A stretch of DNA of 62,758 nucleotides from a virus, in IMG/VR virus record IMGVR_UViG_3300050033_000335, positions 1 to 62,758 of that record; one strand, 5' to 3'. Under the pieces are notes generated by a model. The model saw only the letters and a program-made list of their open reading frames with translations. It had not been told where the DNA came from and did not search any database. The position numbers and the translations under genes are program-made. Below, piece after piece: positions 1 to 62,758 of the stretch; position 1 is the stretch's first letter; each line of letters opens with the position of its first letter.

Positions 1-16
1 GCTACGATAAATCATC

Positions 17-1405
17 ATGGAAATCAACGACCAATACCATAACGGTTATCATACTGGCATCATGCGTGATGACAATATCCTGATAGGCCCTAGGATAAGG
101 TTTGACCTGCATAATATCAGTGACGATGAATTGCGTTTTTGGTCTACTCAAGAAATTGGGATACCAACACGGCCAATTCAACGTGCTTACAAATTCCGGA
201 TCACTGACGTGACCCCTGAACAAGTCCAGCAGATGTCACAATATTTTGGTAATGAGCGGTTCCTCTGGAACAAACTGGTGGCCGAGCAGAAAGCCCTTCG
301 AGTATCCGGTCAGAAAGCTTTGAGCCACTTCGACATGAACAAACTGATTACCTTACTAAAGGTCGATCATCCATTTTTAAAGGAGTCTCCATCACAGGCA
401 CTGCAGGCCCGTGCCGGCGCCCTTGCAAAAGGGCAAAAAGCTGCCTTAGACAAGAAGAACCCTGCAACATTTCCTGACTTTAAGAAGAAAGGGAAGTGCT
501 CTGAAAGTTTCACTCTGTTGCAAGGATGTACCCTATTACAGCCAGATTGCATCACAGTCCCAAAACTTGGCAATTTGTACTTCATCAATGGTGGCAATAA
601 CCCTGCACGACAAAAGACAATGCGCATCATTAATGGGAACGTCAATTCGGTAACCATCAGTTTTAAGCAGAATGCATATTGGATTTCCATCCAGACAGAA
701 CTTACCGTAGAGCCACTACCACACCCGAGCATCAGCGAGGCGGCCCTAGATCTAGGCGTAGCCAGGTTCTGCACTCTCTCTAACGGCGAGTTTTTCTTGC
801 CATTAAACGCTTTCAAGGCAAAGCAAGATCGATTGGCAATAATGCAAAGGCAACTGTCGCGCCAGGTGAAATTGTCCAACAACTGGCATTTTCTTAAAAA
901 CAAGATTAACAAACTACACTGCAAAATCGCCAACATGCGCAAGGACTTTCTTCATAAAATCTCGACCTATCTCTGCAACAGCCACGCAGTGATCTATGTT
1001 GAGGACCTGAAGGTCAAGAACATGATGGCATCAGCAGCCGGCACTATCGAGAATCCTGGTAAAAACGTGAAGCAGAAATCTGGCCTTAATCGGAGCATCG
1101 CAGACCAAGGATGGGCCATGTTTCTGGGATTCCTGCGCTATAAGCAGGACTGGCGTGGTGGCAGAGTCATAGAAGTGCCACCATATTTCACAAGTCAGCG
1201 GTGTCCGAAATGCGGGTTTACCCATGCGCTTAATCGGGAGGACCAGAGCCATTTCGGTTGCATCAATCCAGAATGTAATTTTACAGCAAATGCAGACTAT
1301 GTAGCGTCATTGAACATCAAAGTGAAAGGGCAGACGGCCCCGGATAGCCTGGTAGTATTGTCGCGCCAGTCAAGGGCGATAAAATCAGGAACTTGCAGTG
1401 CGTGA
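17..1405 (+). CDS. tnpB: TnpB / IS605 OrfB RNA-guided nuclease-like protein
   Basis: TnpB proteins are transposon-encoded RNA-guided DNA nucleases with a RuvC fold. All three expected acidic residues are visible: D245 in a DLGV motif, E329 in VEDL and D427 in NADYVASLNI. A zinc ribbon lies between the last two (CPKCG at about 396-400, second pair near 415-420). TnpB homology starts only near residue 54 (AYKFRI, then TPEQV). The first ~50 residues are not typical and may be a phage gene start captured by insertion, so the true start is uncertain (another ATG lies at 62). No TnpA is visible. Base composition is richer in GC than the neighbours, which suggests transfer. A transposon right-end hairpin follows directly after the stop. 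Confidence 0.9.
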   Translation: MEINDQYHNGYHTGIMRDDNILIGPRIRFDLHNISDDELRFWSTQEIGIPTRPIQRAYKFRITDVTPEQVQQMSQYFGNERFLWNKLVAEQKALRVSGQKALSHFDMNKLITLLKVDHPFLKESPSQALQARAGALAKGQKAALDKKNPATFPDFKKKGKCSESFTLLQGCTLLQPDCITVPKLGNLYFINGGNNPARQKTMRIINGNVNSVTISFKQNAYWISIQTELTVEPLPHPSISEAALDLGVARFCTLSNGEFFLPLNAFKAKQDRLAIMQRQLSRQVKLSNNWHFLKNKINKLHCKIANMRKDFLHKISTYLCNSHAVIYVEDLKVKNMMASAAGTIENPGKNVKQKSGLNRSIADQGWAMFLGFLRYKQDWRGGRVIEVPPYFTSQRCPKCGFTHALNREDQSHFGCINPECNFTANADYVASLNIKVKGQTAPDSLVVLSRQSRAIKSGTCSA

Positions 1406-1467
1406 GCCTGTGAGAATCTCCGTCCTTCAGGGCGGAGAGTACGTCAACTGGGAGATTATTCAATCCC
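1300..1467 (+). ncRNA. Candidate omega RNA (reRNA) with guide
   Basis: In TnpB systems the 3' part of the tnpB gene plus the right end is processed into an omega RNA whose guide is the sequence just outside the element. By analogy the scaffold would cover roughly 1300-1447 and the guide would begin at 1448 (CTGGGAGATTATTCAATCCC). The 5' boundary is a guess. The call rests on the tnpB gene and the end hairpin, not on a recognised RNA fold. Confidence 0.35.
1418..1447 (+). mobile_element. IS200/IS605-type right end with hairpin
   Basis: An 8-bp stem (1418-1425 with 1430-1437, one G-U pair, loop TTCA) lies 12 nt after the tnpB stop and is followed by AGTACGTCAA. This arrangement is typical of IS200/IS605 right ends, where TnpA recognises a sub-terminal hairpin and the element ends a few bases later. 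I place the end at about 1447. I found no matching left end, so the element may be an IS607- or IS605-derived remnant, or its left end may lie before base 1. Confidence 0.65.
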
Positions 1468-1922: not shown

Positions 1923-3751
1923 GTAGCCCTTACCCCAAAATCCAGTTTCCTTTAATATTGGCCCCACTTTTTGAGCCGCATCTTTATAAAGTTGTATGGG
2001 GTGGCCGTGGAGGACTTAAAACAAGAAACATCGCCCAGGCTTTGGTAATCCTGGGCGCTGCTACATCTATCAGAGTAATTTGTTGCAGAGAGATCCAAAA
2101 GTCTCTTAAAGATTCAGTACATCAGGAACTAGCCGATGCTATAGTTCGTGCTGGGCTTGATGATTATTATCGCATCCTGGATAATGAGATCCGGGGTATA
2201 AATAATGGTACATTCTTCATCTTCACTGGTCTTAAATCCAATAGCTCCTCGATTAAATCCACAGCAGCTTTAAATATAGCTTGGGTAGAAGAAGCCGAAG
2301 GTGTATCTAAATCATCGTGGGAGTTCCTTGAACCTACGATGAGAACACCTTGGCTATTACCCTGCCAGTTCTGGCCCATAGGTACTAAGTTCACGCCGGA
2401 AGAACGAAGATTAAATGGTCGGTGGGTAGATCCTGAGATCTGGTGTTCATTCAATCCAGATGATGAGACTGACGAAACATATGTTAAATTTGTAGGAGGA
2501 GATCCGCCTAGATCAGGATGGAAGCCGCCGCCCGGAGCCTGGATATGTATGACTTCTTGGCGTGATAATCCATGGATGCCAAGTAATCTTATCATGCAGA
2601 AGGACCATCTTGAGGCCACTGATTATGATGCTTATCTTCATGTGTGGGAAGGTAAGCCCAGAAAGATGTCTGCAGCTCAAGTACTTCGAGATAAATATGT
2701 GAAGCAATGGTTCGAACCCGATCCAGACACATGGGATGGCCCATATGATGGAACTGACTGGGGATTCTCTAGTGATCCATCAGCTCATAGCCGATGCTGG
2801 GTATTCCAAAGACGATTATATATAGAATATGGTTATTATGGCTATGGTGTGGAGAATGATGATCTATCTGAATGGTTGAATCAAATGCCCGATGCAGCTA
2901 GGCAAGTAAATAGGGCAGACTGTGCCAGGCCAGAAACTATCAGCCATTGTCGCAGGCATGGTCATCCGTTAATGATACCGTGTGAGAAATGGCCAGGATC
3001 AGTAGAAGATGGAGTTTCATACCTACGTGGTGAATTTGATCAGATTGTAATCCACCCGAGATGTGAATCAGCACTGGAAGAAGCTCGGTTATGGTCCTAT
3101 GAGATAGATAAGAATAGTCAAGAAGTATTGCCTAAACTAAAGAAAGGCCATGATCATATAATGGATTCTATACGTTACGCTATAGGCCCACTCATTCGAG
3201 GCGCTGTTAAGTTGCCTGGTAACTGGTGGCGTAGATGGACTGAGACAGAAGCCACGGAACGAGCCATTTCAATCAAGTACGTCATTGTAACCGTTGATGA
3301 AACAACAGAAGGAGCTGCTGAACTACGGGCCGTATTCCAATTATGGGGTGTTGGTGGCTATAGTAAGATATTCCTGTTAAAAGAGGCAGGCTGTTTTGGC
3401 CTATTACCTGAGATCATGGATGAGATAGCTAAATTCTGGGAGGAATGTGCCCAGTTTGGCAGTTATGTTAAAGCAGCTAGTGAGTTATGGTGTGAGAGTA
3501 AATCAATTGGATCTACATTGATCAAAACTCTACGCGCAAAAGGTATACCTGCAAGGGAATGGGATCAAGAAGATTTGAGCATGAATGATCCATCCTGGAG
3601 GGCAAAGCAAGCTTCAGTTCATCTGCATGACGGTAGGGTATATATTCCAGTTGGCCCATGTATAGCTATGCAAGAAATAGAAGGTCTTGCCACTAATGCG
3701 TTAACTCTAGCATTAATGGTTTGGCAGAAGAGGGGCGGGGGCGTAGGATAA
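1919..3751 (+). CDS. terL: Phage terminase large subunit, with extra C-terminal domain
   Basis: 610 residues from ATG 1919; TTG 1910 is a weaker alternative. The ATPase domain packages DNA into the prohead. Its Walker A is GGRGGLKT (about residues 28-35) and its Walker B-like motif is IAWVEEAEG. The first nuclease domain shows the Terminase_3-type pattern GTDWGFSSDP. After about residue 440 there is a further ~165-residue segment with VTVDETTEG, then CESKSIGSTLIKTLR, then LHDGRVYIP. This resembles the RNase H-like nuclease of another terminase class (Terminase_6C pattern VEDKxxGTSLI). The protein is therefore longer than the usual 420-550 residues and appears to carry two nuclease-like domains. 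No small subunit is recognisable nearby. Confidence 0.92.
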   Translation: MSSPYPKIQFPLILAPLFEPHLYKVVWGGRGGLKTRNIAQALVILGAATSIRVICCREIQKSLKDSVHQELADAIVRAGLDDYYRILDNEIRGINNGTFFIFTGLKSNSSSIKSTAALNIAWVEEAEGVSKSSWEFLEPTMRTPWLLPCQFWPIGTKFTPEERRLNGRWVDPEIWCSFNPDDETDETYVKFVGGDPPRSGWKPPPGAWICMTSWRDNPWMPSNLIMQKDHLEATDYDAYLHVWEGKPRKMSAAQVLRDKYVKQWFEPDPDTWDGPYDGTDWGFSSDPSAHSRCWVFQRRLYIEYGYYGYGVENDDLSEWLNQMPDAARQVNRADCARPETISHCRRHGHPLMIPCEKWPGSVEDGVSYLRGEFDQIVIHPRCESALEEARLWSYEIDKNSQEVLPKLKKGHDHIMDSIRYAIGPLIRGAVKLPGNWWRRWTETEATERAISIKYVIVTVDETTEGAAELRAVFQLWGVGGYSKIFLLKEAGCFGLLPEIMDEIAKFWEECAQFGSYVKAASELWCESKSIGSTLIKTLRAKGIPAREWDQEDLSMNDPSWRAKQASVHLHDGRVYIPVGPCIAMQEIEGLATNALTLALMVWQKRGGGVG

Positions 3752-3760
3752 GGAGAAAAA

Positions 3761-3960
3761 ATGATATTCCCAGTGAATACACTGGAGGTATATCTGGAGG
3801 CATATCTAAAATGATATTTCCAGTGAATACACTGGAGGTATATCTGGAGGCATATCTAAAATGATATTCCCAGTGAATACACTGGAGGTATATCTGGAGG
3901 CATATCTAAAATGATATTCCCAGTGAATACACTGGAGGTATATCTGGAGGCATATCTAAA
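3761..3960 (+). repeat. Four tandem 50-bp repeats downstream of the terminase
   Basis: Units start at 3761, 3811, 3861 and 3911. They are identical except one synonymous base in the second copy (TTC to TTT). Each has two GGAGG sequences, TATATCT and ATGATATTCCCAGTGAA, which are shared with the array at 1672-1771. There are no variable spacers, so this is not a CRISPR array. Confidence 0.95.
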
Positions 3961-3964
3961 ATGA
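3761..3964 (+). other. Chain of four identical 17-codon mini-cistrons
   Basis: Every repeat encodes MIFPVNTLEVYLEAYLK. The stop TGA of each ORF overlaps the ATG of the next through ATGA (3811-3814, 3861-3864, 3911-3914, 3961-3964), and each start is preceded by its own GGAGG 10 nt upstream. The first is led by AGGAG 5 nt before its ATG, just after the terminase stop. If translated, the mRNA would yield the same peptide four times by reinitiation. The peptide has an amphipathic, Leu/Tyr-rich C-terminal half. The alternative is that coding is incidental to a DNA iteron. Confidence 0.45.
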
Positions 3965-4041
3965 TAGATAATTGGGTCTGGCCTTCCCCGCTAGGGGGGA
4001 TAGAGCGGATTCGTCAGGAGTGGACGCCTTTTTTCACATGA
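3961..4041 (+). CDS. 26-residue ORF ending the mini-cistron chain
   Basis: It begins with the ATG that overlaps the stop of the fourth repeat ORF and encodes a Trp/Arg/Pro-containing peptide (MIDNWVWPSPLGGIERIRQE, then six more residues). It is the exit ORF of the array and uses the same GGAGG site. No similarity is recognised. It could be a real microprotein or simply the first open codons after the repeat. Confidence 0.25.
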   Translation: MIDNWVWPSPLGGIERIRQEWTPFFT

Positions 4042-5496: not shown

Positions 5497-5725
5497 TTAC
5501 AATGCATGGCTTGATTGGGAAATGGAAGTTTGCGATCTTGATAATGAAGATGAAGACTCTTATGCAAAACGTACTGAACCAAAGAAGTTTCCCTGCTATA
5601 TAGGAACTGAAATAGTGGGCTGGGAGGATGGCCCTAATGGAGAGGAGAATGTCGGTCAGCCATTATTTGCTCCGGTTTTCTTCTATGAAGAAGATCTAAA
5701 GAAGATGTTGGAGGAATTGAAATGA
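5471..5725 (+). CDS. Conserved-looking acidic small protein
   Basis: 84 residues from ATG 5471, with AAGGAG about 8 nt upstream. It is strongly acidic (EVCDLDNEDEDSY near the N-terminus, FFYEEDLKKMLEELK at the C-terminus). No domain recognised. Stop and next start overlap (ATGA). Confidence 0.7.
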   Translation: MECLTLLLDYNAWLDWEMEVCDLDNEDEDSYAKRTEPKKFPCYIGTEIVGWEDGPNGEENVGQPLFAPVFFYEEDLKKMLEELK

Positions 5726-5922
5726 TTATTAAAGACAATATTGAATGTTCAATGAGCACGTGCATACATTGTTATAAGGGTGAATGTTTTCATCTTGATC
5801 CGAACATTGGGTATTCAGAAACTGATAGCCGATGCGGGTCTCTTGATAAAGGAACAGGATCAGCTAAGAGCAAATCCGGGTCTGCGGGAAATAGCCCAAT
5901 GATTATGGTGATAGGAGAGTGA
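5722..5922 (+). CDS. Small Cys-rich protein
   Basis: 66 residues. CSMSTCIHCYKGECFH carries four closely spaced Cys and a later Cys (SRCGS), consistent with zinc binding. It is the last gene before the head-module promoter at 5932. Function unknown. Confidence 0.6.
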   Translation: MIIKDNIECSMSTCIHCYKGECFHLDPNIGYSETDSRCGSLDKGTGSAKSKSGSAGNSPMIMVIGE

Positions 5923-5931
5923 ACTAAAAGG

Positions 5932-5960
5932 TTTACTTTTTAACCAGAATTTGATATAAT
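5932..5960 (+). promoter_or_regulatory. Sigma70-like promoter for the head operon
   Basis: TTTACT (5932-5937), a 17-bp spacer and TATAAT (5955-5960). It is immediately upstream of the conserved hairpin leader and the portal gene, and almost identical in design to the promoter at 12944-12972. Confidence 0.8.
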
Positions 5961-5983
5961 ATTTAAGATTATTTAGAGTGCTA

Positions 5984-6039
5984 AACAGGATTATAGGAAG
6001 CCGAGTCACCCATCTAGGGGTGACTCGACTTTTCTTTTG
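5984..6039 (+). ncRNA. Conserved 56-nt hairpin leader, copy 1
   Basis: This block matches 12991-13046 at all but one base. It holds AGGATTA, then a 10-bp stem (6002-6011 with 6018-6027, loop ATCTAG) followed by a U-rich CTTTTCTTTTG. A terminator-like hairpin 40-60 nt after a promoter start site suggests attenuation, antitermination or a short stable RNA. The portal ribosome-binding site (GAGGAG) lies just after it. Confidence 0.75.
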
Positions 6040-6058
6040 TAGTTTAGAGGAGACGGCT

Positions 6059-7879
6059 TTGATTAAAAGATCTAATCAAAATACCCACGAAAACCTCGGA
6101 TCGGTAGTACGCTCTAAAGCCAAGCTTCAGAGGGTTAAAAATATGAGGATCACTTCAGCAGGAGCTGGAGGACGAGGAGATAGAGCAGCTGCTGCTAGTG
6201 TGCCATTTTATTCAAATAACCCCGAAACTTTTACAAATCCGCTAGAAAGATGGCGCGAGTATGCGTTGATGTACCAGACTTCGTGGGAAATTCGAAAGAT
6301 AGTCAATATCCCAGTAGATGACGCTCTACGTAAACCGCCTACGCTAAAAGGAATTTCAGATGAAGCCGGTACTATCCTAAAGAAAAAATTAGATAAGCTG
6401 CAGTGGATACCGGTTACTAAAAGAGCACTTAAACTGGAACGCTTGTTAGGCGGTTGTCTTCAATTTATGGGGTTGGAAGCTGATAATGATGATTCATCTC
6501 AGCCATACCATCCAACCGAAGGTAAAAAACTGTTATTTATGAATTCTATTCCTATATCTAGAATCTCTAGGATGAATTGGTCAACAGATCCATTGTCTGC
6601 AAGTTATATGAGACCATCTTCATTCTATGTAAATAATATCGAAGTTCATGTCTCAAGATGTCTTATATGGGATGGATCTCCATTATTTGATTGCAACGAT
6701 TTTGCACTGACTAACTATAGAGCTAATCTGGCTGGCTTTGGAAATAGTGTTATTGGTTGTTTGTTTGATGATGTAGTTATGGCATGCGGGACTAGGCAAG
6801 CAGCTTATCAAATGGTGCAGATGACTGGGGCCATTATAGCTACTATCGATATGCTTCAGGAGATAGGTGGAACTGCCCCAGGACAAGCCAAAGTAAAACA
6901 ACTTGAGCAGATGATTAATGATTTATCTGTTTATAGGGCAACCTTTTTAGCTGGAGATAAAGTTAAAGTCGAATCATTTAACCAGCAATTCGGTTCAATA
7001 CCTGAATTACTTCTAATGTATCTTCAAGTTCTTTCTGCGGCGTCGGACATTCCTGCTAGTCGTTTCTTAGGACAAGCTCCAGGCGGTCTCTCTACAGATG
7101 ATAGATCGGGGCTTGAAAACTATTATAACCAAATAGATGCTTATCAATCTGAACGCATTACACCCCAGTTTATACGGCTATGTGATGTAATAGGATACGC
7201 TGAAATACCAAACTGGGAAAATGAGAGAAAAAAATTAGAAATTGAATGGCCACCACTCTGGAATGAGACAGCAAAAGAGGAAGCAGAGCGAGCAGGTTTG
7301 ACTATTGCCAATGTACTTCAATTAGTAGATGCAGCACTCATGGGTGAAGAGGCTGCTATTGGGGAAATTAATGCTAGAGGAATTCTGGCCACTAAGTTGG
7401 AGAAGTCCGACCTGGAATTACTACAGAGCGCTCAAGATGCCCTTAGCAGGCACTTGGATCTTCCTAATAGTGGTAGTAGCCTCGAAGGAAAAACACCTTC
7501 TACAAATGATTCTAGGGACAATCCTTTTAATAAGCAGCGAGATGAAGAGGAAGATCCAGGTAAGCGGTCTTTTCCCGGTGGGACAAGTGGTGATCAGAAG
7601 TCCAGCCTACAACGGCTAAAGAATATGGCCAAAATCCAGAATGATCTTTCCGACTTTATGCTTAAACATCTAGTCAAAGAAATAGATTACGATCCAGATG
7701 CCTTTGATCTAAATGAAATAAAAGCTGGTTATGTAGTTGAACAGGAACATGCAGATATAACTAAAGGTGAGCCGGAGAAAGTAATGCGAATAGTAATGGC
7801 TCACATGACTGAAAAGAAAGATTATTATTCTGAACTAGAAAAGATGGAACATGAATCGGAACCTGTAGAGTCAAAATAA
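6059..7879 (+). CDS. Phage portal protein (DUF1073-like)
   Basis: 606 residues. The portal dodecamer forms the DNA entry vertex and docks the terminase. The start is TTG 6059, 7 nt after GAGGAG; the longer open frame from 5978 would translate the leader hairpin and is rejected. Typical DUF1073 features include the N-terminal WREYALMYQTSWEIRKIVNIPVDD stretch, the ALxxxR-like clip region and GGLSTDDRSGLENYYNQID before the C-terminal wing. A charged, low-complexity tail follows from about residue 500. The stop is adjacent to the next ATG. Confidence 0.88.
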   Translation: MIKRSNQNTHENLGSVVRSKAKLQRVKNMRITSAGAGGRGDRAAAASVPFYSNNPETFTNPLERWREYALMYQTSWEIRKIVNIPVDDALRKPPTLKGISDEAGTILKKKLDKLQWIPVTKRALKLERLLGGCLQFMGLEADNDDSSQPYHPTEGKKLLFMNSIPISRISRMNWSTDPLSASYMRPSSFYVNNIEVHVSRCLIWDGSPLFDCNDFALTNYRANLAGFGNSVIGCLFDDVVMACGTRQAAYQMVQMTGAIIATIDMLQEIGGTAPGQAKVKQLEQMINDLSVYRATFLAGDKVKVESFNQQFGSIPELLLMYLQVLSAASDIPASRFLGQAPGGLSTDDRSGLENYYNQIDAYQSERITPQFIRLCDVIGYAEIPNWENERKKLEIEWPPLWNETAKEEAERAGLTIANVLQLVDAALMGEEAAIGEINARGILATKLEKSDLELLQSAQDALSRHLDLPNSGSSLEGKTPSTNDSRDNPFNKQRDEEEDPGKRSFPGGTSGDQKSSLQRLKNMAKIQNDLSDFMLKHLVKEIDYDPDAFDLNEIKAGYVVEQEHADITKGEPEKVMRIVMAHMTEKKDYYSELEKMEHESEPVESK

Positions 7880-8791
7880 ATGGCTTTCCTGCCCACAGAC
7901 AAAGAACTAGCCAAGCTAGCTAAGCGGCGCCCTCGTAGGAGTAGACCGGTCAAACCTAACCGACTGCAAGAGTCTAAACTTTGCCAAGCTATGTCCTTAT
8001 TGTGGAGAGATATACTTCTGCCAGCTACAGAGAGGATTCAATATTTGGTTAGGTCTGGCGCTAGTATCCAAGCCATCACAGACGAACTGGAACGCGCTCT
8101 GTTACTTACCCGTACCCAATATGCTGGCCTAGCTCCTGGAATAATAGACATGTGGAAAGCAGGAGTTAACAGGGAAGTCCAAAACGCTATTGTCAGATCA
8201 ATGACCTCTAGCCTTGGGATTGATCTATCTGCGGTATTAACTCAGCCTGACGTTTCAGAAGCTATGGCTGCAGCTACATTGCGTTCAGTTCAGACGATTA
8301 CTAGCATTCCGTCAGAGTATCTAGGCCAGATAGCGCGGGCTGTAGCTGACAACTTCTCGGGGGTACCTCTTTCTGAAGGTAGATCTTTACTTGGGGAGAT
8401 TCAACAGTTGGGGTTTACATCATATCGGCGATCTAAAATGATAGCCCGTGATCAAACAAGCCGTCTCACAGCAGCGCTTAATGCTCATAGACAGCAGGCT
8501 GTTGGAATAGAGATGTACGTTTGGAGGTGTGTTCTTGATATGGCTGTGGTAGGCAATCCCAGCGGAGTATCGCCTGTGGGAAATAAAGCCCATGGTGATC
8601 ATTGGGATCTTGAAGGTATGTATTGCAAATGGTCTGATAACTCGGTTTATAGTGATGATAAAGGACAGACATGGAAGAAGAGACCATCAGCTTGGTCTAA
8701 ATTAGCTCCTGGGGGGGAAATACTTTGTAGATGCTGGGCAGATCCGATTGTCGATCCACCTAAAATAGTTCAGAAGCTGATAACATACTAA
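7880..8791 (+). CDS. Minor head protein, Mu gpF / SPP1 gp7-like
   Basis: 303 residues. Proteins of this family sit inside or at the portal vertex and help head assembly or DNA ejection. The diagnostic central motif is SKMIARDQTSRLTAALNAHRQQ, followed by YVWRCVLD and the C-terminal Cys-containing CRCWADPIV, as in the Phage_Mu_F family. It starts immediately after the portal stop, the standard portal-gpF gene order. Confidence 0.85.
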   Translation: MAFLPTDKELAKLAKRRPRRSRPVKPNRLQESKLCQAMSLLWRDILLPATERIQYLVRSGASIQAITDELERALLLTRTQYAGLAPGIIDMWKAGVNREVQNAIVRSMTSSLGIDLSAVLTQPDVSEAMAAATLRSVQTITSIPSEYLGQIARAVADNFSGVPLSEGRSLLGEIQQLGFTSYRRSKMIARDQTSRLTAALNAHRQQAVGIEMYVWRCVLDMAVVGNPSGVSPVGNKAHGDHWDLEGMYCKWSDNSVYSDDKGQTWKKRPSAWSKLAPGGEILCRCWADPIVDPPKIVQKLITY

Positions 8792-8806
8792 TTGGGAGAT
8801 TATAAG

Positions 8807-9142
8807 ATGAAAGAAAAAGTTAAAAATGGATCTTGTTATGCGGCTCGTCCCCAAGTCTGTACTAAATGCGGAAAGATAGGTCATCTTTATCAGTCTTGCC
8901 CTGAAAAGAAGCCAGTGGGCCCTGTTGATAATACGGCCTTTATGAAAGGACAAAATATTGCAAGAGTAGAGATTCTGAATAAGATTCAGAATCTGGCTGG
9001 AATTGATTCTAGGGTATCAACTTCTGAGGTTAGACAGGAGTTAAATAAATACCAATATAATCATTGCCCTACCCATGGAATGTATCCTAGAGCTGTAGGT
9101 AAATGCCCTAGATGTAATTATAATTCCGAATTAGCTGGTTAA
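8807..9142 (+). CDS. Zinc-knuckle protein in the head module
   Basis: 111 residues from ATG 8807 (GGGAGA upstream). CTKCGKIGHLYQSC is a CX2CX4HX4C zinc knuckle, the nucleic-acid-binding motif of retroviral nucleocapsid and many RNA-binding proteins. A second Cys/His cluster near the C-terminus (CPTHGMYPRAVGKCPRC) looks like a zinc ribbon. Such proteins bind single-stranded nucleic acid. Its position between head genes suggests a role in packaging or RNA binding, but this is only inferred. Confidence 0.75.
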   Translation: MKEKVKNGSCYAARPQVCTKCGKIGHLYQSCPEKKPVGPVDNTAFMKGQNIARVEILNKIQNLAGIDSRVSTSEVRQELNKYQYNHCPTHGMYPRAVGKCPRCNYNSELAG

Positions 9143-9181
9143 GTGTATATAATACCTTATCAAAATTCATAGGAGTCCAAA

Positions 9182-9475
9182 ATGAGTAAAAAGCTTGCAG
9201 CTATTAATGGTATAACAGTAGTAGATTTTGTTCCAGACCCAACTCAATCTTTAGTTCCTTCTAGCGCTGCATTAATTACAATACGTACAGTTAACACCGT
9301 CGCAGTAAAGATCTTGGCGCTATCTGATATAACTTATTATTTCAATTCAGATTCTACTAAGACTTTCCTTGTAAAAGCTGGTATTGAGACAATAATAATG
9401 GTGGCTAATCCCGGTATTCTATCACTCAACATTGTGAATACTAGTACAACTGCTGTTTATATGCAGGGGATGTAA
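9182..9475 (+). CDS. Putative small structural protein
   Basis: 97 residues. The sequence is rich in Thr, Val, Ile and Ser and predicted to be nearly all beta (NTVAVKILALSDITYYF and similar). It looks like a decoration or fibre-knob protein, but I do not recognise a family. TAGGAGTCC precedes the ATG. The next ATG is 2 nt after its stop. Confidence 0.65.
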   Translation: MSKKLAAINGITVVDFVPDPTQSLVPSSAALITIRTVNTVAVKILALSDITYYFNSDSTKTFLVKAGIETIIMVANPGILSLNIVNTSTTAVYMQGM

Positions 9476-9477
9476 TT

Positions 9478-9798
9478 ATGAGATCTATCATTCTTAGTAT
9501 AATGATAATATTTTTACCAGGGTTTGCCTGGAGTCTTGGCGATATGGGTACTACTCAAGGTAAAAACATCCCTTTTGCCTCTACCGCCACTCCAGGAAAG
9601 GTCATGGTAGATGGTAGTAGTATTACTATATCCAATGGCACAATCTCCTCCCATGCCGGTAGTGGCGGCGGTATAACAGCAGTTACCGGAGTATCCCCTA
9701 TCGCAGTTTCAAGCGGAGGTACTCCGGCTGTTAGTTTAGGGTCAGTACCGTTCAAGAATATTTCTGCCGCACTTAGAGCACACGGCTTCACATTTTAA
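9478..9798 (+). CDS. Secreted fibre-like protein with signal peptide
   Basis: 106 residues. The first ~20 residues (MRSIILSIMIIFLPGFAWS) form a Sec-type signal peptide with a likely cleavage after AWS. The remainder resembles tail-fibre repeats (TPGKVMVDGSSITISNGTISS) and ends KNISAALRAHGFTF. That ending matches internal motifs of the 1,280-residue fibre (NISAAIRLGGS and KNFSAAYRANFG). It may be a fibre fragment, a fibre cap or an independent surface protein. Confidence 0.7.
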   Translation: MRSIILSIMIIFLPGFAWSLGDMGTTQGKNIPFASTATPGKVMVDGSSITISNGTISSHAGSGGGITAVTGVSPIAVSSGGTPAVSLGSVPFKNISAALRAHGFTF

Positions 9799-9907
9799 TT
9801 AAATATTATATAAATCCAAACTATATTGGAAATTTAGCACGTACTTCTCCAAGCATAGTATTTTTATGAATATTTAGATTTTTATTCGGATTTTAGGAGC
9901 TGAATAA

Positions 9908-11065
9908 ATGGCAACCAGAACAATAAGCGATAGCGGCGGTAATTACTCGGCAACCGGCACATGGGTTGAGGGGGTTGTGCCGACAGCCTCAGACGCTGTA
10001 GTTGCCACTGGCACCTCTGGGAACTTAACAGTTGACACAACTGGTAACGCAGCCGCGTCAGTGGATTTTACCAATTACCCTGTTACTTCTACTATCACTT
10101 TTGCAGCAACAAAGATGTTGACTGTATACGGAGGTTACAAACAAATTGCTGGCATGAATATTACTGGAACAGGGTCGCTGGTAATGGCTCTTGCGTCCAC
10201 AATGACATCAGCAGGAGTAACTTTCCCTGGTTCTTTAATCTTCGCAGTGAATGCTACTTTTACATTGGCCGATAATTGGACTCTAACTGGTTTATTGACC
10301 TACAATGCCAATATAGTTGTTCTTAATGGCAATCAAATTACTTGCAACGGAGGGATAACCAATAATGGGACGCCTAGTGGAACAACTAATATTATTTTAG
10401 CTGGTGGAACATGGTCAGGAAGTGGTACAAATGGGCTTTATAATAATTTAACTATAGCAGGAAATGTAACAGTTTCGGGCGCTGTTTATTATAGGAATGG
10501 AGTACTAACATATTTATCGGGAACAGTGACGTGGTCAAGTGCTGTATTGAGAATAACTGCAAATTGCACGCTAAACACTAGTGGGATAACCTGGCCGAAC
10601 GTAACCACAGCACAGGTTGCGACATGGACACTGCAAAGCGACTTAAATTGCACGATTTTAAATTTAGGCCACGCCATAATAACAGCTGGAAACTTTAATA
10701 TTAATTGCGCCAGCTATTTTGCAATAGCTGCTGGTGCTTCCTTAACTGTAAAAGCAGGACAAACCTTAAATATTTCAACTACGATGTTTTCTGGCACGCC
10801 AAGTTCGGCAGGTACTTACGTAAACTGCCCTCTAAAGTCAGGCACAGCCTCAAGCCCAATGTATCTAAATTATCAAGGACCGCAAGCAAATTTAGCGCTT
10901 ATAGGCTGCGCTATTACGGACGTAGACGCTTCCAGTTCTGCTATTCCGTTATTCCAGTATCAAGGAAGCACTCTACTAAGAACAGTTAATATCACGAACA
11001 TAGTACTTCCCCCGGCAGGCGGCTTAATGGGAAGCAGCAGTTTGTTAGGGGGGCTAGATGGCTAA
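9908..11065 (+). CDS. Beta-helix-type adhesin / tail-associated protein
   Basis: 385 residues, starting with RBS TTTAGGAGC. It is dominated by short Thr/Asn/Gly/Val repeats (ITGTGSLVMA, LTIAGNVTVSG, LTVKAGQTLNIS) typical of right-handed beta-helices seen in phage fibres and adhesins. There is no signal peptide. The C-terminus (PPAGGLMGSSSLLGGLDG) overlaps the next gene by 8 nt. The exact role is unknown; it may be a head fibre, because it lies among head genes. Confidence 0.7.
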   Translation: MATRTISDSGGNYSATGTWVEGVVPTASDAVVATGTSGNLTVDTTGNAAASVDFTNYPVTSTITFAATKMLTVYGGYKQIAGMNITGTGSLVMALASTMTSAGVTFPGSLIFAVNATFTLADNWTLTGLLTYNANIVVLNGNQITCNGGITNNGTPSGTTNIILAGGTWSGSGTNGLYNNLTIAGNVTVSGAVYYRNGVLTYLSGTVTWSSAVLRITANCTLNTSGITWPNVTTAQVATWTLQSDLNCTILNLGHAIITAGNFNINCASYFAIAAGASLTVKAGQTLNISTTMFSGTPSSAGTYVNCPLKSGTASSPMYLNYQGPQANLALIGCAITDVDASSSAIPLFQYQGSTLLRTVNITNIVLPPAGGLMGSSSLLGGLDG

Positions 11066-12938
11066 GTTATCAATACTCGGCGGCGCAACTAGCGTCACAG
11101 ATTACATTTTCGTTCAGGACTCGGCAAGCACTGTCGGCGCTGGTAAAACGGGGCTCGTCTACAATACTTCGGGGTTATCAGCCTACTATGTCAGGCCAGG
11201 AGCAGCGTCGCAAGCCGTGTCGCTGGTGACCCAGACCGTAACCGGGGCGTATTCATCGGGTGGATTCGTGGAAGTGGATGCTGTAAACCTACCGGGCGTT
11301 TATCGTATCGACTACCCCAACGCCATGCTTGCGGCAGGGGTACGGTCGGCGGTAATGATGCTGAAAGGGACCGGGATTGCACCGGTAAAGTTGGAGCTAG
11401 AGCTGACCGGATGGGATAACCAGGTATCTAAAATAGCCTCCACTCTTGCAGCTTCGGATGTGACAGGGAATCTCCCTACCAACGTCATCCAGGTCAACGG
11501 CACCGCTCAGACGGCCCGAGATCTGGGAGCGAGCGTACTGCTTGCAGGTGATTTTTCCGCGACGATGAAAACAAGTCTCAACGCGTCAACGGTAGCAACT
11601 GTGACCAACCTCACCAATGCACCGACGAACGGCGACCTTACAGCCACAATGAAGGCCAGTATAGCAACGTCCGTTAGTGGTGTGACTGCTGCTGTCACTG
11701 CCATTACGACCAATACGGCAAGGGGGCGTACTGTTATCCCAGACCAGATGGAGCTGCCTGCTTCCGGTTCTACATCTTATGAAATCAACCTCAACATTTA
11801 CACGCTGCAGGGGGCAATGGATGCCCCCGACTCGGCACCTACCATTCACGCCAGGACTGTGGGCGGGGCTTCGATGGATGCGTCACTTAGGTCCACCGCC
11901 ATGACGCTTATATCTGCAGGCGTCTACAATGTGACCTATTCTGTAGCATCAACAGATATTCAACAGCAGATCCTTTTCACCTTCGCCTGGGCTGTTGGAG
12001 GGGTGCCATTCACTCTCACGGGCACGACTGATGTTGTCAACGTGTATGCTGTGGCCTTTACATCTATCGACCGAACTGCACTGAACGCTATTCCAACTAC
12101 CCCTCTTTTAACTAGTGATACTCGGTTAAATCATTTGAATGCAGATATTTCGGCTATTCCAATTGCTCCACTTCTGGCAAGCGACACCCGGCTGAACCAC
12201 TTGAACGCCGACATCTCAGCCATTCCAATTGCCCCACTCTTGGCAGTAAACTATACGGCACCGGATAGTGCTAGTATAATAGCAACGGCAGTGTGGGCAG
12301 CAGGAGGACGGACACTGACATCTTTCGGCACACTAGTTGCCGATGCCGCAGCCGCAGTCTGGGGTGCTGTGTCTCGAACACTTACAGCTTTTGCATTCAT
12401 TCCTACTGTTGACAAGACTGGGTATACTTTAGATTCTGCACAACGGGTTAAACTAGATGCTTCACAACCTGATTATGTACCTGCTAAAGAATCTGATGTA
12501 ACAACAATAACAACAGCAATTAGCAATATATCAGATCCATTTTCTGAGGTAATTCCAGAAAGTAATCCGGCTATGACTTATGGACAAGCTTTAGCTAGGT
12601 TAACAGTACCTAGTACACTTCCAGTAATTCCAATATTAGCTCTGCCTACTACTACTTATCAGATTCTATATGGGAATACTAAAGAATTTGCAGCTACGGC
12701 TTGGTCGGTAGGCGATATTGCTACCATGACCATTTCTAGTTCACAGATTATAAATGGTGTTATTATCGAACCTGCAATTAGGACGTGCACTTTAGACTCC
12801 ACCGGATTATTTTCTTTTACCCCAGATATAGGTTTAACTAACGTATTAATAACTATAAGTAATTTTAGAGGTATTTATTTTTCTAAAGCAATTTCTCTAA
12901 TAAATACAAACAGCAGTATGAACATTTCAGATTACTAA
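11058..12938 (+). CDS. Large mosaic structural protein
   Basis: 626 residues. The first ~340 residues are encoded in GC-rich sequence. They begin with a beta domain (TDYIFVQDSASTVGAGKTGLVYN, then SGGFVEVDAVNLPGVYRIDYP) that recurs in structural proteins of uncultured phages. A helical repeat region (TATMKASIATSVSG) and a second beta domain follow. Residues near 350-400 contain two adjacent copies of a 23-residue peptide (SDTRLNHLNADISAIPIAPLL) written with different codons. The last ~170 residues are AT-rich and Ig-like. It looks like a fusion of segments of different origin. Confidence 0.7.
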   Translation: MAKLSILGGATSVTDYIFVQDSASTVGAGKTGLVYNTSGLSAYYVRPGAASQAVSLVTQTVTGAYSSGGFVEVDAVNLPGVYRIDYPNAMLAAGVRSAVMMLKGTGIAPVKLELELTGWDNQVSKIASTLAASDVTGNLPTNVIQVNGTAQTARDLGASVLLAGDFSATMKTSLNASTVATVTNLTNAPTNGDLTATMKASIATSVSGVTAAVTAITTNTARGRTVIPDQMELPASGSTSYEINLNIYTLQGAMDAPDSAPTIHARTVGGASMDASLRSTAMTLISAGVYNVTYSVASTDIQQQILFTFAWAVGGVPFTLTGTTDVVNVYAVAFTSIDRTALNAIPTTPLLTSDTRLNHLNADISAIPIAPLLASDTRLNHLNADISAIPIAPLLAVNYTAPDSASIIATAVWAAGGRTLTSFGTLVADAAAAVWGAVSRTLTAFAFIPTVDKTGYTLDSAQRVKLDASQPDYVPAKESDVTTITTAISNISDPFSEVIPESNPAMTYGQALARLTVPSTLPVIPILALPTTTYQILYGNTKEFAATAWSVGDIATMTISSSQIINGVIIEPAIRTCTLDSTGLFSFTPDIGLTNVLITISNFRGIYFSKAISLINTNSSMNISDY

Positions 12939-12943
12939 AAGTG

Positions 12944-12972
12944 TTTACTTTTTAGTTTGACTTTGGTATAAT
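12944..12972 (+). promoter_or_regulatory. Sigma70-like promoter, second head operon
   Basis: TTTACT (12944-12949), a 17-bp spacer and TATAAT (12967-12972), matching the promoter at 5932-5960 in -35, spacing and -10. It begins 5 bp after the stop of the preceding gene and reads into the second hairpin leader. Confidence 0.82.
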
Positions 12973-12990
12973 ATATAAGTAAACATTTTG

Positions 12991-13046
12991 AACAGGATTA
13001 TAGGAAGCCGAGTCACCCATCTAGGGGTGACTCGGCTTTTCTTTTG
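12991..13046 (+). ncRNA. Conserved 56-nt hairpin leader, copy 2
   Basis: 55 of 56 bases match copy 1 at 5984-6039. The stem is 11 bp here (13008-13018 with 13025-13035, loop ATCTAG); the single difference closes an extra pair. A CTTTTCTTTTG tract follows, giving an intrinsic-terminator look. It precedes the GGAGAG ribosome-binding site of the GTG-started gene at 13081. Confidence 0.78.
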
Positions 13047-13080
13047 ACCTCATCCCAACAAGATTACACAGGAGAGAAAA

Positions 13081-13491
13081 GTGAAAAATTGGATTATCGC
13101 AGCAATAATTGTGTTAGTTGGCGCTTTGCCTTATGGAATATCTCAGGCAGGTACAGCTAGCCAGAGCGCCCCTGCTGTTGGTCGAATTAACGTTCCTCTT
13201 ACTGTGCCTAAAGTCGCTAAGTCCTCCTGCAAAACCATAGTTGCCGGTGCTCATGTAGTTACTACCTTTGATGTGTCTAATACGACCATGGTAAACTGGA
13301 AGGCAACTACTTCCCCCACTAACTCTGCCCTAGTTATTGTCAAGCGTATCCTGAATTCCAATACGGCTTACTATCCTGCATCCGATGAGAAGAACCTCCC
13401 AATTGACGCTTTGGTATCTACGCTAGGGTTTTCTAACTTTTCGGCCGCTAGTCCTCCTGCTACAACTTATGTTTGTGTAGAGCTTAACTAG
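13081..13491 (+). CDS. Secreted protein of unknown function
   Basis: 136 residues from GTG 13081 (GGAGAG upstream). An N-terminal signal peptide (MKNWIIAAIIVLVGALPYGISQAG) has a plausible cut after SQA. The mature part contains two Cys (SSCKTI and YVCVEL) that could form a disulphide in the periplasm. It is the first gene after a strong promoter and sits just before head-maturation genes, an odd position for an exported protein. Confidence 0.7.
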   Translation: MKNWIIAAIIVLVGALPYGISQAGTASQSAPAVGRINVPLTVPKVAKSSCKTIVAGAHVVTTFDVSNTTMVNWKATTSPTNSALVIVKRILNSNTAYYPASDEKNLPIDALVSTLGFSNFSAASPPATTYVCVELN

Positions 13492-13500
13492 GATATAACT

Positions 13501-41286: not shown

Positions 41287-41361
41287 CAACGGGGCCTCCA
41301 ATTATTGAAGCGGATGCCCCTATTCCGGCTAGATAATTTCATTTTTATTGTTATTGTTATT

Positions 41362-41404
41362 GCCCCAGGTGTTTTTCTCCTTTTACGCCTGGGGTATTTT
41401 TACC
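41362..41404 (+). terminator. Intrinsic terminator, end of late region
   Basis: A 9-bp stem with one G-U pair (41363-41371 with 41386-41394) encloses a 14-nt loop (TTTTTCTCCTTTTA) and is followed by TATTTTTACCTTTTT. It closes transcription of the structural/lysis block. Confidence 0.85.
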
Positions 41405-41679: not shown

Positions 41680-41707
41680 TTTACTTTTTTCTAAAGGTGT
41701 TTATAAT
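41680..41707 (+). promoter_or_regulatory. Promoter for the replication operon
   Basis: TTTACT (41680-41685), a 16-bp spacer and TATAAT (41702-41707), then AGGATTA (41715-41721) and the ribosome-binding site GGGAGGA. It belongs to the TTTACT/TATAAT family seen at 5932 and 12944. Confidence 0.78.
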
Positions 41708-41737
41708 TGGCTTTAGGATTAAAGGGAGGATTTAAAA

Positions 41738-45974: not shown

Positions 45975-46040
45975 GGTCGATTTCAATGCCCTAGCTCCGA
46001 AGCGAATCGACCTTCGACAACTAGGGGCTAGGGCTTTTTT
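45975..46040 (+). terminator. Terminator with interlaced alternative stem
   Basis: Stem B, an 11-bp pair (45988-45998 with 46024-46034), ends in TTTTTT and is an intrinsic terminator; a small inner stem CGAAG/CTTCG fits in its loop. A second perfect 8-bp stem A (45975-45982 with 46005-46012) crosses it, so A and B would either exclude each other or form a pseudoknot. This suggests regulated termination after the ssDNA-binding-like gene. Confidence 0.75.
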
Positions 46041-55586: not shown

Positions 55587-56414
55587 ATGCAACCAAAATA
55601 TCCAGTATATATTATCTCGAAGGGCCGGTGGGAGAGCAGATTAACAGCAAAATGTCTGGAGAAGATAAATGTACCTTACCATATCGTAGTCGAACCCCAA
55701 GAATATGACCAATATGCAAAGGTAATTGATCCTTCTAAAATCTTTGTATTACCTTTCTCCAATTTAGGATTAGGATCTATTCCTGCTAGAAACTGGGTAT
55801 GGGAACATGCCATATCTATCGGAGCAGAACGACATTGGATCATGGATGATAATATCTATAACTTTTATCGTCTGAACCAAAATTTTAAAGGTCGGGTAAC
55901 ATCAGGAACTGTCCTAAAGCTAGCTGAGGATTTTGTAGATAGGTACGAGAATGTAGCCCTATCTGGTTTTCAATATGCACTATTAACAGCTGCCCCCAAA
56001 AAAAAACCTGCTTTCTGTCTTAACACTAGAATCTATTCTTGTATTTTAATTAAGAATGATCTTCCTTACAGGTGGAGAGGAAAGTATAATGAGGATACCG
56101 ATCTAAGTTTAAGAGTGTTGAAAGATGGATGGTGTACGATTCTGTTTTATGCCTTTTTAGCCAATAAAATGACAACATTGGTAATGAAAGGTGGGAATAT
56201 GACGGAGTTATATAAAGATGATGGTCGTTTGAAGATGGCTGAGTCGCTAAGAGATCAGCATCCAGGCGTATGTTGTATTACTTGGAAATGGAATCGCTGG
56301 CAACATCATATTAATTATAAACCTTTTAAAAAGAATAAACTCATCATGAAGGAAGGTTTAGTCATTCCCAAAGGAAATAATGAGCATGGAATGAAATTAG
56401 TAAGACTGAAATAA
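55587..56414 (+). CDS. TET/JBP-associated-type glycosyltransferase
   Basis: 275 residues. PVYIISKGRWESRLTAKCLEKINVPYHIVVEPQEYDQYA and IPARNWVWEHAISIGAERHWIMDDNI, with DDN as the likely nucleotide-sugar/metal site, fit the TAGT family defined in phages. Family members are thought to glycosylate hydroxymethylated DNA bases. Later DTDLSLRVLKDGWCT is typical of GT-A folds. Followed at 11 nt by a radical SAM gene. No TET/JBP or known base hydroxylase is visible here. Confidence 0.75.
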   Translation: MQPKYPVYIISKGRWESRLTAKCLEKINVPYHIVVEPQEYDQYAKVIDPSKIFVLPFSNLGLGSIPARNWVWEHAISIGAERHWIMDDNIYNFYRLNQNFKGRVTSGTVLKLAEDFVDRYENVALSGFQYALLTAAPKKKPAFCLNTRIYSCILIKNDLPYRWRGKYNEDTDLSLRVLKDGWCTILFYAFLANKMTTLVMKGGNMTELYKDDGRLKMAESLRDQHPGVCCITWKWNRWQHHINYKPFKKNKLIMKEGLVIPKGNNEHGMKLVRLK

Positions 56415-56425
56415 AGGAGTTGTTT

Positions 56426-57400
56426 ATGTGGAAAAAGATGAAACAGATAAAGCGAATAAAGCCACTAGGGTCTACTTCACCTCGGGTCTGGGTAATAGAA
56501 CCTTCATTTGGATGTAATCTAAAATGTGGTCATTGTTGTTCTGATTTAATACAGTATGAAGATAAATTACTCATGTCTAAAGAAGTATGGACAGCCACCT
56601 GGAATATTCTGGGCCAAGTATCTCCAACTGTTAGGGTCGATATTTGCGGAGTAGTAGGGGAACCTACCCTAAATCCGGATTTAACAGAGTGGCTGCCAAT
56701 AGGCAGACAATTAGCTCCTCTTTCCCAGATCCAAATCACTACTAATGGTACTAAATTGATAAGTGGTGCTGTTACATTTAAGAGGTTATTAGATGCCGGA
56801 GCTAATATTATTTATGTAGATCAATATGGGCCCCCAGAAATATTTGAAAAACTGGCTGAAGAATCAGGTTATCCTTGGTATAAATATTATGACGCTCCCG
56901 AGGATGCCCCTAGTCCCTGGAAATATTATGGTCCACATCCCAAATTTATTGTATTAATGGATCATCCTGGGCTTTGGCCAAAATCACGATTTAGGGCAGG
57001 GTTACTCGGTAACTGGTATGGGAATCTTAACTGGGAAAAGGCAAAAGAATTTGGAATGAAGCCATTAGAGCAACCTTTAACTCGCCGCTGTAATCAGCCG
57101 TTTCTCTATGTCAATGTTGGAGCTGATGGCAACTATTTGCTATGCTGTCAAGATGGATTACATATAACTTCTGGGAAGTTTGGAAGTGTATTAGAAGGGC
57201 AGTATGGATTTAATTCATTTTGGTATGGAAAGGAAATGCAGATAGTACGTCAGCGATTAAGAAATAAAGATCGAGCAGGTACGCTTTATGCTTGTGCCAA
57301 ATGTAATATTACATTTTCCCGATGTGATTTTAGACACTATAGTAAAGAAGAATTATCAAAATATTTGGAAAATGGCGAATGGGTTAAATTTAAGGATTAA
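56426..57400 (+). CDS. Radical SAM enzyme
   Basis: 324 residues from ATG 56426 (AAAGGAG upstream). The canonical CX3CX2C cluster is FGCNLKCGHC (C30, C34, C37). The pattern GEPTLNP and QITTNGT are conserved radical SAM features. A C-terminal Cys-rich part (CNQPF, LLCCQDGLH, CAKCNITFSRCDFRHY) suggests an additional SPASM-type Fe-S site. It likely modifies a nucleobase or a protein; because of the neighbouring glycosyltransferase a DNA-base hypermodification role is proposed. Confidence 0.85.
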   Translation: MWKKMKQIKRIKPLGSTSPRVWVIEPSFGCNLKCGHCCSDLIQYEDKLLMSKEVWTATWNILGQVSPTVRVDICGVVGEPTLNPDLTEWLPIGRQLAPLSQIQITTNGTKLISGAVTFKRLLDAGANIIYVDQYGPPEIFEKLAEESGYPWYKYYDAPEDAPSPWKYYGPHPKFIVLMDHPGLWPKSRFRAGLLGNWYGNLNWEKAKEFGMKPLEQPLTRRCNQPFLYVNVGADGNYLLCCQDGLHITSGKFGSVLEGQYGFNSFWYGKEMQIVRQRLRNKDRAGTLYACAKCNITFSRCDFRHYSKEELSKYLENGEWVKFKD

Positions 57401-62233: not shown

Positions 62234-62758
62234 GCCAAGACTTAATAGAAGGGCCAATAGACGGTTATAAGTTAACAGATGAAAATATGGTTTGTTGCCC
62301 AGGCGGTATACCTTACCAGTATGAACTTGGTAAACGACATCAATTGGTAGAAGAAAACAGGCCTTTAGATTTGTGCGAGTATGGTTTCCACTTCTGCTTA
62401 TATCCTTCAGGTGTTTATGTATATAAAAATATAGGTAGAGTTTTTAAAGTAAGAGCCTACGGAGTTTTGAAATTGGATAAAACTCCGGGAGCAGATTTAA
62501 AGATGGTTTGTAAGGAGATAGAATTTGTTGAAGAAATAACGCCTACAGGTAACCAGAATACAGGCCACCGGAATACAGGCGACCAGAATACAGGCCACCG
62601 GAATACAGGCTGCCAGAATACAGGCCACCGGAATACAGGCCACCGGAATACAGGCTGCCAGAATACAGGCGACTGGAATACAGGCGACCAGAATACAGGC
62701 CACCGGAATACAGGTAACTGGAATACAGGCGAACGGAATATAGGCCACCTGAATACAG
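62230..62758 (+). CDS. DUF7666 protein with NTG pentapeptide repeats, partial
   Basis: Starts at ATG 62230 and runs off the window edge. N-terminal DUF7666-like domain (~residues 1-100): GYKLTDENMVCCPGGIPYQYELGK, PLDLCEYGFHFCLYPSGVYVY. From about residue 105 it is made of NTGxx repeats (NTGHR, NTGDQ, NTGCQ, NTGNW and so on), about 14 copies to the end of the window. NTGxx pentapeptide repeats form right-handed beta-helices in other families. The role is unknown; similar proteins are common in phages near small-gene clusters. Confidence 0.8.
   Translation, partial: MSQDLIEGPIDGYKLTDENMVCCPGGIPYQYELGKRHQLVEENRPLDLCEYGFHFCLYPSGVYVYKNIGRVFKVRAYGVLKLDKTPGADLKMVCKEIEFVEEITPTGNQNTGHRNTGDQNTGHRNTGCQNTGHRNTGHRNTGCQNTGDWNTGDQNTGHRNTGNWNTGERNIGHLNT
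62548..62758 (+). repeat. 15-bp tandem repeat array (NTGxx codons)
   Basis: The DNA is a tandem of 15-bp units based on AATACAGGC plus six variable bases. Asn, Thr and Gly codons are nearly always AAT ACA GGC, so the repeats were spread recently or are being homogenised. Two positions per unit vary in a non-random way (H/D/C/N/E with R/Q/W/L). The array continues beyond the window. Confidence 0.9.

Follow-up and report, generated by a model that had tools for sequence, protein, structure and literature searches.

A duplicated promoter, leader motif and terminator-like hairpin at the head of late genes in a contractile-tailed phage: a candidate conditional attenuator

Late gene control by a terminator lying behind the late promoter is known in detail mainly from lambdoid phages, as represented by the PR'-tR' pair of phage 21 and the 26-kb late region of lambda in the available sections of PMC6606751 and PMC7171158. 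A promoter-proximal structured RNA of ~70 nt, present in two similar copies in one phage, is described for put of HK022 in excerpts of PMC9378689, and for p7 of Xp10 the accessible part of PMC4513864 describes a long late operon with intrinsic terminators that the host polymerase must read through. Here we describe an element of comparable layout from a phage group unrelated to the lambdoid phages. A search of open-licence papers found none that describes such an element, and an isolate phage collection gave no DNA match over positions 5700-13500.

The window, as we call the whole stretch of DNA analysed, is a 62,758-base IMG/VR record of a phage that has a contractile tail and Pam3-like structural proteins, and it carries the element twice, both copies and the genes and hairpins around them lying on the + strand. 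In copy 1 a promoter recognised from its sequence (5932-5960; -35 TTTACT at 5932-5937, 17-nt spacer, extended -10 TG.TATAAT ending at 5960) is followed by the leader motif AGGATTATAGGA (5987-5998), a hairpin (5998-6031, -20.4 kcal/mol, with one C.A mismatch at base 6028) and a U-rich tract (6030-6038), and 20 nt after this tract the portal gene begins (6059-7879, TTG start, SD GAGGAG). The same parts make up copy 2, with the promoter at 12944-12972 (TTTACT at 12944-12949, 17-nt spacer, TG.TATAAT ending at 12972), AGGATTATAGGA at 12994-13005, the hairpin at 13005-13038 (-27.6 kcal/mol), the U-rich tract at 13037-13045 and a start codon 35 nt after it, an SD lying in between in both cases. Both have a GC-rich hairpin after the leader and then a CUUUUCUUUUG tract, and with the U-rich tract TTTTCTTTT immediately after the GC-rich stem-loop each shows the anatomy of an intrinsic terminator. 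An earlier note on this DNA had placed a promoter, AGGATTA, a hairpin and a U-rich tail at 5932-6058 and a recurrence of a 56-nt block at 12991, and all of these were found there: the blocks at 5984-6039 and 12991-13046 are identical at 55 of 56 positions, the sole difference being base 6028, an A in copy 1 and a G in copy 2. The hairpin of 10 bp given in that note turned out to be longer, with 14 consecutive pairs in copy 2 and with ten pairs, the C.A mismatch and the three pairs AAG/CTT in copy 1. The element is indeed promoter-proximal, but its position of ~40 nt into the transcript has to be revised, as, for an assumed transcription start 7 nt after the -10, the RNA reaches the stem after ~31 nt and the U tract after ~63 nt. 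The initially transcribed region is AT-rich.

Folding from the leader motif onward gave one main extended hairpin. Fold z-scores were -3.3 for copy 1 and -4.6 for copy 2, and for neither copy did any of 200 shuffles fold as well. The two promoters are 79% identical over 42 nt and have TTTACTTTTTA and the extended -10 region in common, while 8 nt in the middle of the spacer differ; a pattern combining the promoter parts, with as many as 3 mismatches allowed, matched only these two places in the window (0.00 in shuffles). Since promoter-like and terminator-like sites taken singly occur in near chance numbers in the window, only their combination and its conservation carry weight. No Rfam family matched the window at gathering score. 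A leader peptide was considered and rejected: the open frame that extends across both hairpins is, by eye, not preceded by any start codon with a usable SD, and in the related record L098 a stop was seen by eye just upstream.

Copy 1 precedes the portal gene and copy 2 heads the protease-capsid-tail region; the proposal of a duplicated, promoter-proximal terminator-like element serving both head operons is confirmed. The first gene after copy 2, gp13081 (13081-13491, GTG start), encodes a small protein with a signal-peptide-like start that matched no Pfam or PHROG family and whose predicted structure has a mean pLDDT of 61; it is a conserved small protein located within the head operon. The remaining late genes, coding for protease, cement, capsid, sheath and tail proteins (13501-41286), follow with no further strong terminator-like hairpin and, outside coding sequence, no other strong promoter nearby, and the region is closed by a strong terminator-like hairpin at 41361-41404 (-20.7 kcal/mol). 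Shortly after it, at 41680-41726, a third TTTACTTTTTT promoter with the leader AGGATTAAAGGGAGG stands without a hairpin. In the terminator-like scan the + strand gave 14 matches, four of them at -20 kcal/mol or below, namely copy 2 (-27.6, the strongest in the window), the hairpin at 45988 (-23.9), the one at 41361 (-20.7) and copy 1 (-20.4, ranking fourth); the other strand also gave 14, the best at -17.6, and three shuffles gave 6, 6 and 11, and the weak matches are therefore regarded as noise. The hairpin at 45988-46040, with TTTTTT, lies so close before gene 46053 that a promoter would not fit between them. On the + strand no terminator-like hairpin below -10.0 kcal/mol is found from 13.05 to 41.36 kb. 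The L098 record shows the same layout, its element (-22.4) being followed after ~21 kb by a strong hairpin at 23068, and these two are the strongest on its coding strand. Thus, going beyond the earlier note, copy 2 heads a late region of roughly 28 kb.

To follow the element in relatives we used alignment-based searches, which yielded distant relatives by way of the portal and the closer L097, L098 and L099 by way of the capsid, where 3 of 170 stretches but none of 283 stretches of genome contigs encoded a relative. An orthologue of gp13081 is present in seven records (the window, L097, L098, L099, L023, L024 and L119), and in the first four of these the full element lies 5' of it. The element is not universal: it is missing before the orthologues of L023 and L119, and the hairpin with CTTTTCTTTTA that precedes the orthologue of L024 comes without the motif and with a promoter ~150 nt upstream. 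L107 carries the element at the matching place after a head-morphogenesis gene, the following gene being cut by the contig end, and L027 has a variant 1.8 kb before the portal, ahead of a small cysteine-rich ORF. With L098 and L099 being close relatives, the independent lineages with the element number about five. The order promoter, motif, hairpin is kept in all seven elements used, and in every case a gene begins ~20-45 nt after the element. The U-rich tract CTTTTCTTTT is kept in both window copies, L097 and L107, with variants in L098/L099 and L027.

The letters of stem and loop drift freely between relatives, yet the pairing is retained. At stem positions 1-5, counted over six elements with manually entered arms and with L099 excluded because it nearly duplicates L098, pairs form in register in 26 of 27 cells, against 9/27, 7/25, 6/21 and 4/21 when one arm is slid, and every position from 1 to 6, counted from the foot, shows a double change. 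Covariation was weaker in an automatic alignment, with a double change in 3 of 10 pairs, because MAFFT misplaced L097. The sole break in pairing is base 6028 of copy 1, and the copy of the same phage in a metagenome-assembled genome (MAG) has a G there, which completes the copy-1 stem. This conservation marks the terminator-like element as a real functional element. The position of copy 2 is conserved in relatives and that of copy 1 is not, a distinction the earlier note had not made: the portal genes of L097 and L107 have no such hairpin, and at 21 portal loci inspected by eye no counterpart was seen within 360 nt upstream. Copy 1 is therefore likely to be a duplication in the lineage of the window phage and, judging from L097 and L107, is not needed in general.

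Pattern scans found the element at 4 of 15 loci in one scan of viral contigs, at 3 of 8 in another and at 1 of 13 in genome contigs, the last being the window phage itself; matches without the element were mostly coding or unrelated, and such scans can miss cases, as L099 carries the scanned pattern and is absent from the matches. Apart from its own members and the near-identical viral contig L001, a covariance model run on 65 sources picked up no convincing copies. A match with an E value of 0.2 on another contig of the MAG, named Desulfosporosinus, that contains the phage was read as an ordinary terminator. In a Fibrobacter MAG (L131, 3624-3668), AGGATTACAGAAAG, a hairpin and CTTTTCTTT scored 31.9 bits with the model.

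The phage itself was found again on a 38,864-base contig of the MAG Desulfosporosinus sp. palsa_1189, with 99-100% identity over nearly all shared parts, and a Bacillota host is plausible from this binning but unproven. The two assemblies differ around the terminase large subunit gene, upstream of which an IS605-type TnpB gene lies in the window (1-1447) and in L001 (1834-3468), the MAG copy having the empty site (L146, position 10209). In view of this insertion an IS200/IS605 end or another mobile hairpin was considered for our element and rejected, since the element stays in front of a gene and its changes are compensatory. The terminase large subunit gene is flanked by 50-nt tandem repeats with the common AAAATGATATTCCCAGTGAA (1672-1807 and 3708-4007), whose copy number seems to vary between records. 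An array of 15-nt tandem repeats, located where the window ends (62514-62753), probably caused the assembly break, and the MAG contig continues past it into 5.4 kb absent from the window. At 55587-57400 a TET-associated glycosyltransferase adjoins a radical SAM/SPASM protein, which suggests modified phage DNA.

A further result beyond the earlier note is the link of the leader motif AGGATTA.AGGA to promoters, which holds across the window phage and one relative. AGGATTA alone is not strongly strand-biased, occurring 16 times on the + strand and 11 times on the other, and 11 of the 16 lie outside the ORF list used, an area that makes up 12.8% of the window. Among 68 gene starts examined 11 have AGGATTA within 90 nt, and a promoter score of at least 11, the score being tuned to TTTACT/TTTACA, was reached by 5 of these 11 genes versus none of the 57 others. 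The longer AGGATTANAGGA without mismatch occurs on the coding versus the other strand 5 to 0 times in the window and 7 to 0 times in the L098 record. The motif is limited to part of the phage group, as the 60-kb record of a larger relative, L019, has no AGGATTA strand bias. It resembles tandem Shine-Dalgarno sequences and runs into the SD in most genes and into the stem in the elements, where its AAG is the foot of the stem and, in several relatives, it pairs further with the U tract. A generic ribosome-binding motif was rejected, as AGGATTA goes with strong promoters and so is not merely an RBS; being SD-like, it may serve translation or mRNA stability. We consider it rather doubtful that AGGAUUANAGGA, found near the 5' end of the strongly promoted transcripts in this phage group, is the recognition signal of a leader-RNA-dependent system acting by antitermination or translation control, with the terminators behind it making late passage depend on that system. 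The logic would then resemble that of nut or put, but with another motif and another factor.

Our leading reading, which we hold tentatively and somewhat short of an even chance, is that each copy is a late promoter with its own intrinsic terminator, a conditional attenuator that is read through late in infection and would, as the best reading by analogy, work like lambda pR'-tR'. By default the polymerase would start at TTTACT/TATAAT, make the AGGAUUAUAGGA leader and stop at the hairpin and U tract, releasing an RNA of ~65-75 nt; late in infection read-through would allow expression of the portal gene behind copy 1 and of the ~28 kb of protease, capsid and tail genes behind copy 2. Relief is probably set by something acting in the leader, be it a factor of phage or host origin or a ribosome, which either binds the AGGAUUANAGGAAG motif, whose last bases make up the stem's 5' foot, or modifies the polymerase at these promoters. 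From the sequence we infer termination, its conditionality and such an agent, and read-through is expected because it would otherwise make little sense for 28 kb of head and tail genes to lie behind the strongest terminator predicted in the window. The earlier note had offered either regulation by attenuation or antitermination or the release of a small RNA, and the anatomy is compatible with both. Searches for an antiterminator, in a window where most small ORFs match no family, gave no match to the Q families PF06530 and PF03589 (controls live, ~5.4 kb of the phage lying outside the window), to the NusG family (control live) or to PF06323, whose control was silent too. The ~110-nt element offers a compact test piece for finding the factor.

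The short RNA could instead be the product itself, since promoter, short RNA and terminator form a complete small RNA gene, perhaps for a decoy that takes up a factor binding the AGGAUUANAGGA leaders of other phage mRNAs; the leader motif of the elements is identical to that of gene 52517, and early termination of a phage late transcript giving a regulatory sRNA, reportedly described by Sy et al. in 2020 (cited in PMC12197685), was also counted for it. This is quite unlikely, as each of the seven elements is followed by a gene at ~20-45 nt, no other strong promoter lies nearby outside coding sequence for the late genes behind copy 2, and stem and loop drift freely. Just as improbable in our view is an unregulated leaky terminator or insulator that stops incoming upstream transcripts and passes a fixed fraction of the local ones, setting their expression level: pre-gene terminators do seem tolerated, as before gene 46053 with no promoter after the hairpin, but the expected place of an insulator is upstream of the promoter, and the order in all seven elements is the reverse.

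A 5' stabiliser of mRNA is unlikely as well, but becomes a serious rival if the host belongs to the Bacillota, as an SD without start codon together with a hairpin stabilises long mRNAs there. The SD-like AGGAUUAUAGGAAG, after which no start codon follows at usable distance in the window copies, would bind ribosomes and, with the hairpin, shield the long late mRNAs from 5' attack, while the U tract would terminate inefficiently. According to sections of PMC3997798, long downstream RNA is stabilised in Bacilli by a hairpin near the 5' end or by a strong SD there, even one without a start codon, and with the aprE leader and STAB-SD described there our element shares the SD-like leader without start codon and the nearby hairpin. 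That a MAG named Desulfosporosinus contains this phage favours this explanation, although host assignment by binning is weak, and the GC-rich stem with a kept U tract directly after it is the anatomy of an intrinsic terminator, which would counteract a stabiliser.

Returning to the conditional attenuator, among its closest counterparts is the lambdoid pR'/tR'/Q arrangement, with which it shares a promoter heading a very long late operon and, here judged from sequence features, an intrinsic terminator early in the transcript. It differs in that no Q-family member was found in the window (the PF06323 control being silent) and in that conservation is lacking in the promoter spacer, the place of Q binding, which may argue against a DNA site of the Q type in that spot; the conserved unit is instead the leader motif joined to the hairpin, with two copies in this one genome. 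The Bacillus stabilisers are not known to carry a U tract of terminator type behind the stem. According to the excerpts on Xp10, that phage shares with ours a long late operon that needs terminator read-through by the host polymerase. The Xp10 protein p7 is a general factor and is not known to use a leader motif. HK022 put resembles the window element, within the passages on it that we cite, as a promoter-proximal structured RNA of ~70 nt in two copies, but put consists of two stem-loops and prevents termination, whereas the window element is one stem-loop with a U tract and has terminator anatomy. A structure-conserved element in an unrelated phage group, linked to a genome-wide leader motif and lacking any antiterminator that could be recognised, would suggest that late control by a terminator behind the late promoter was solved independently.
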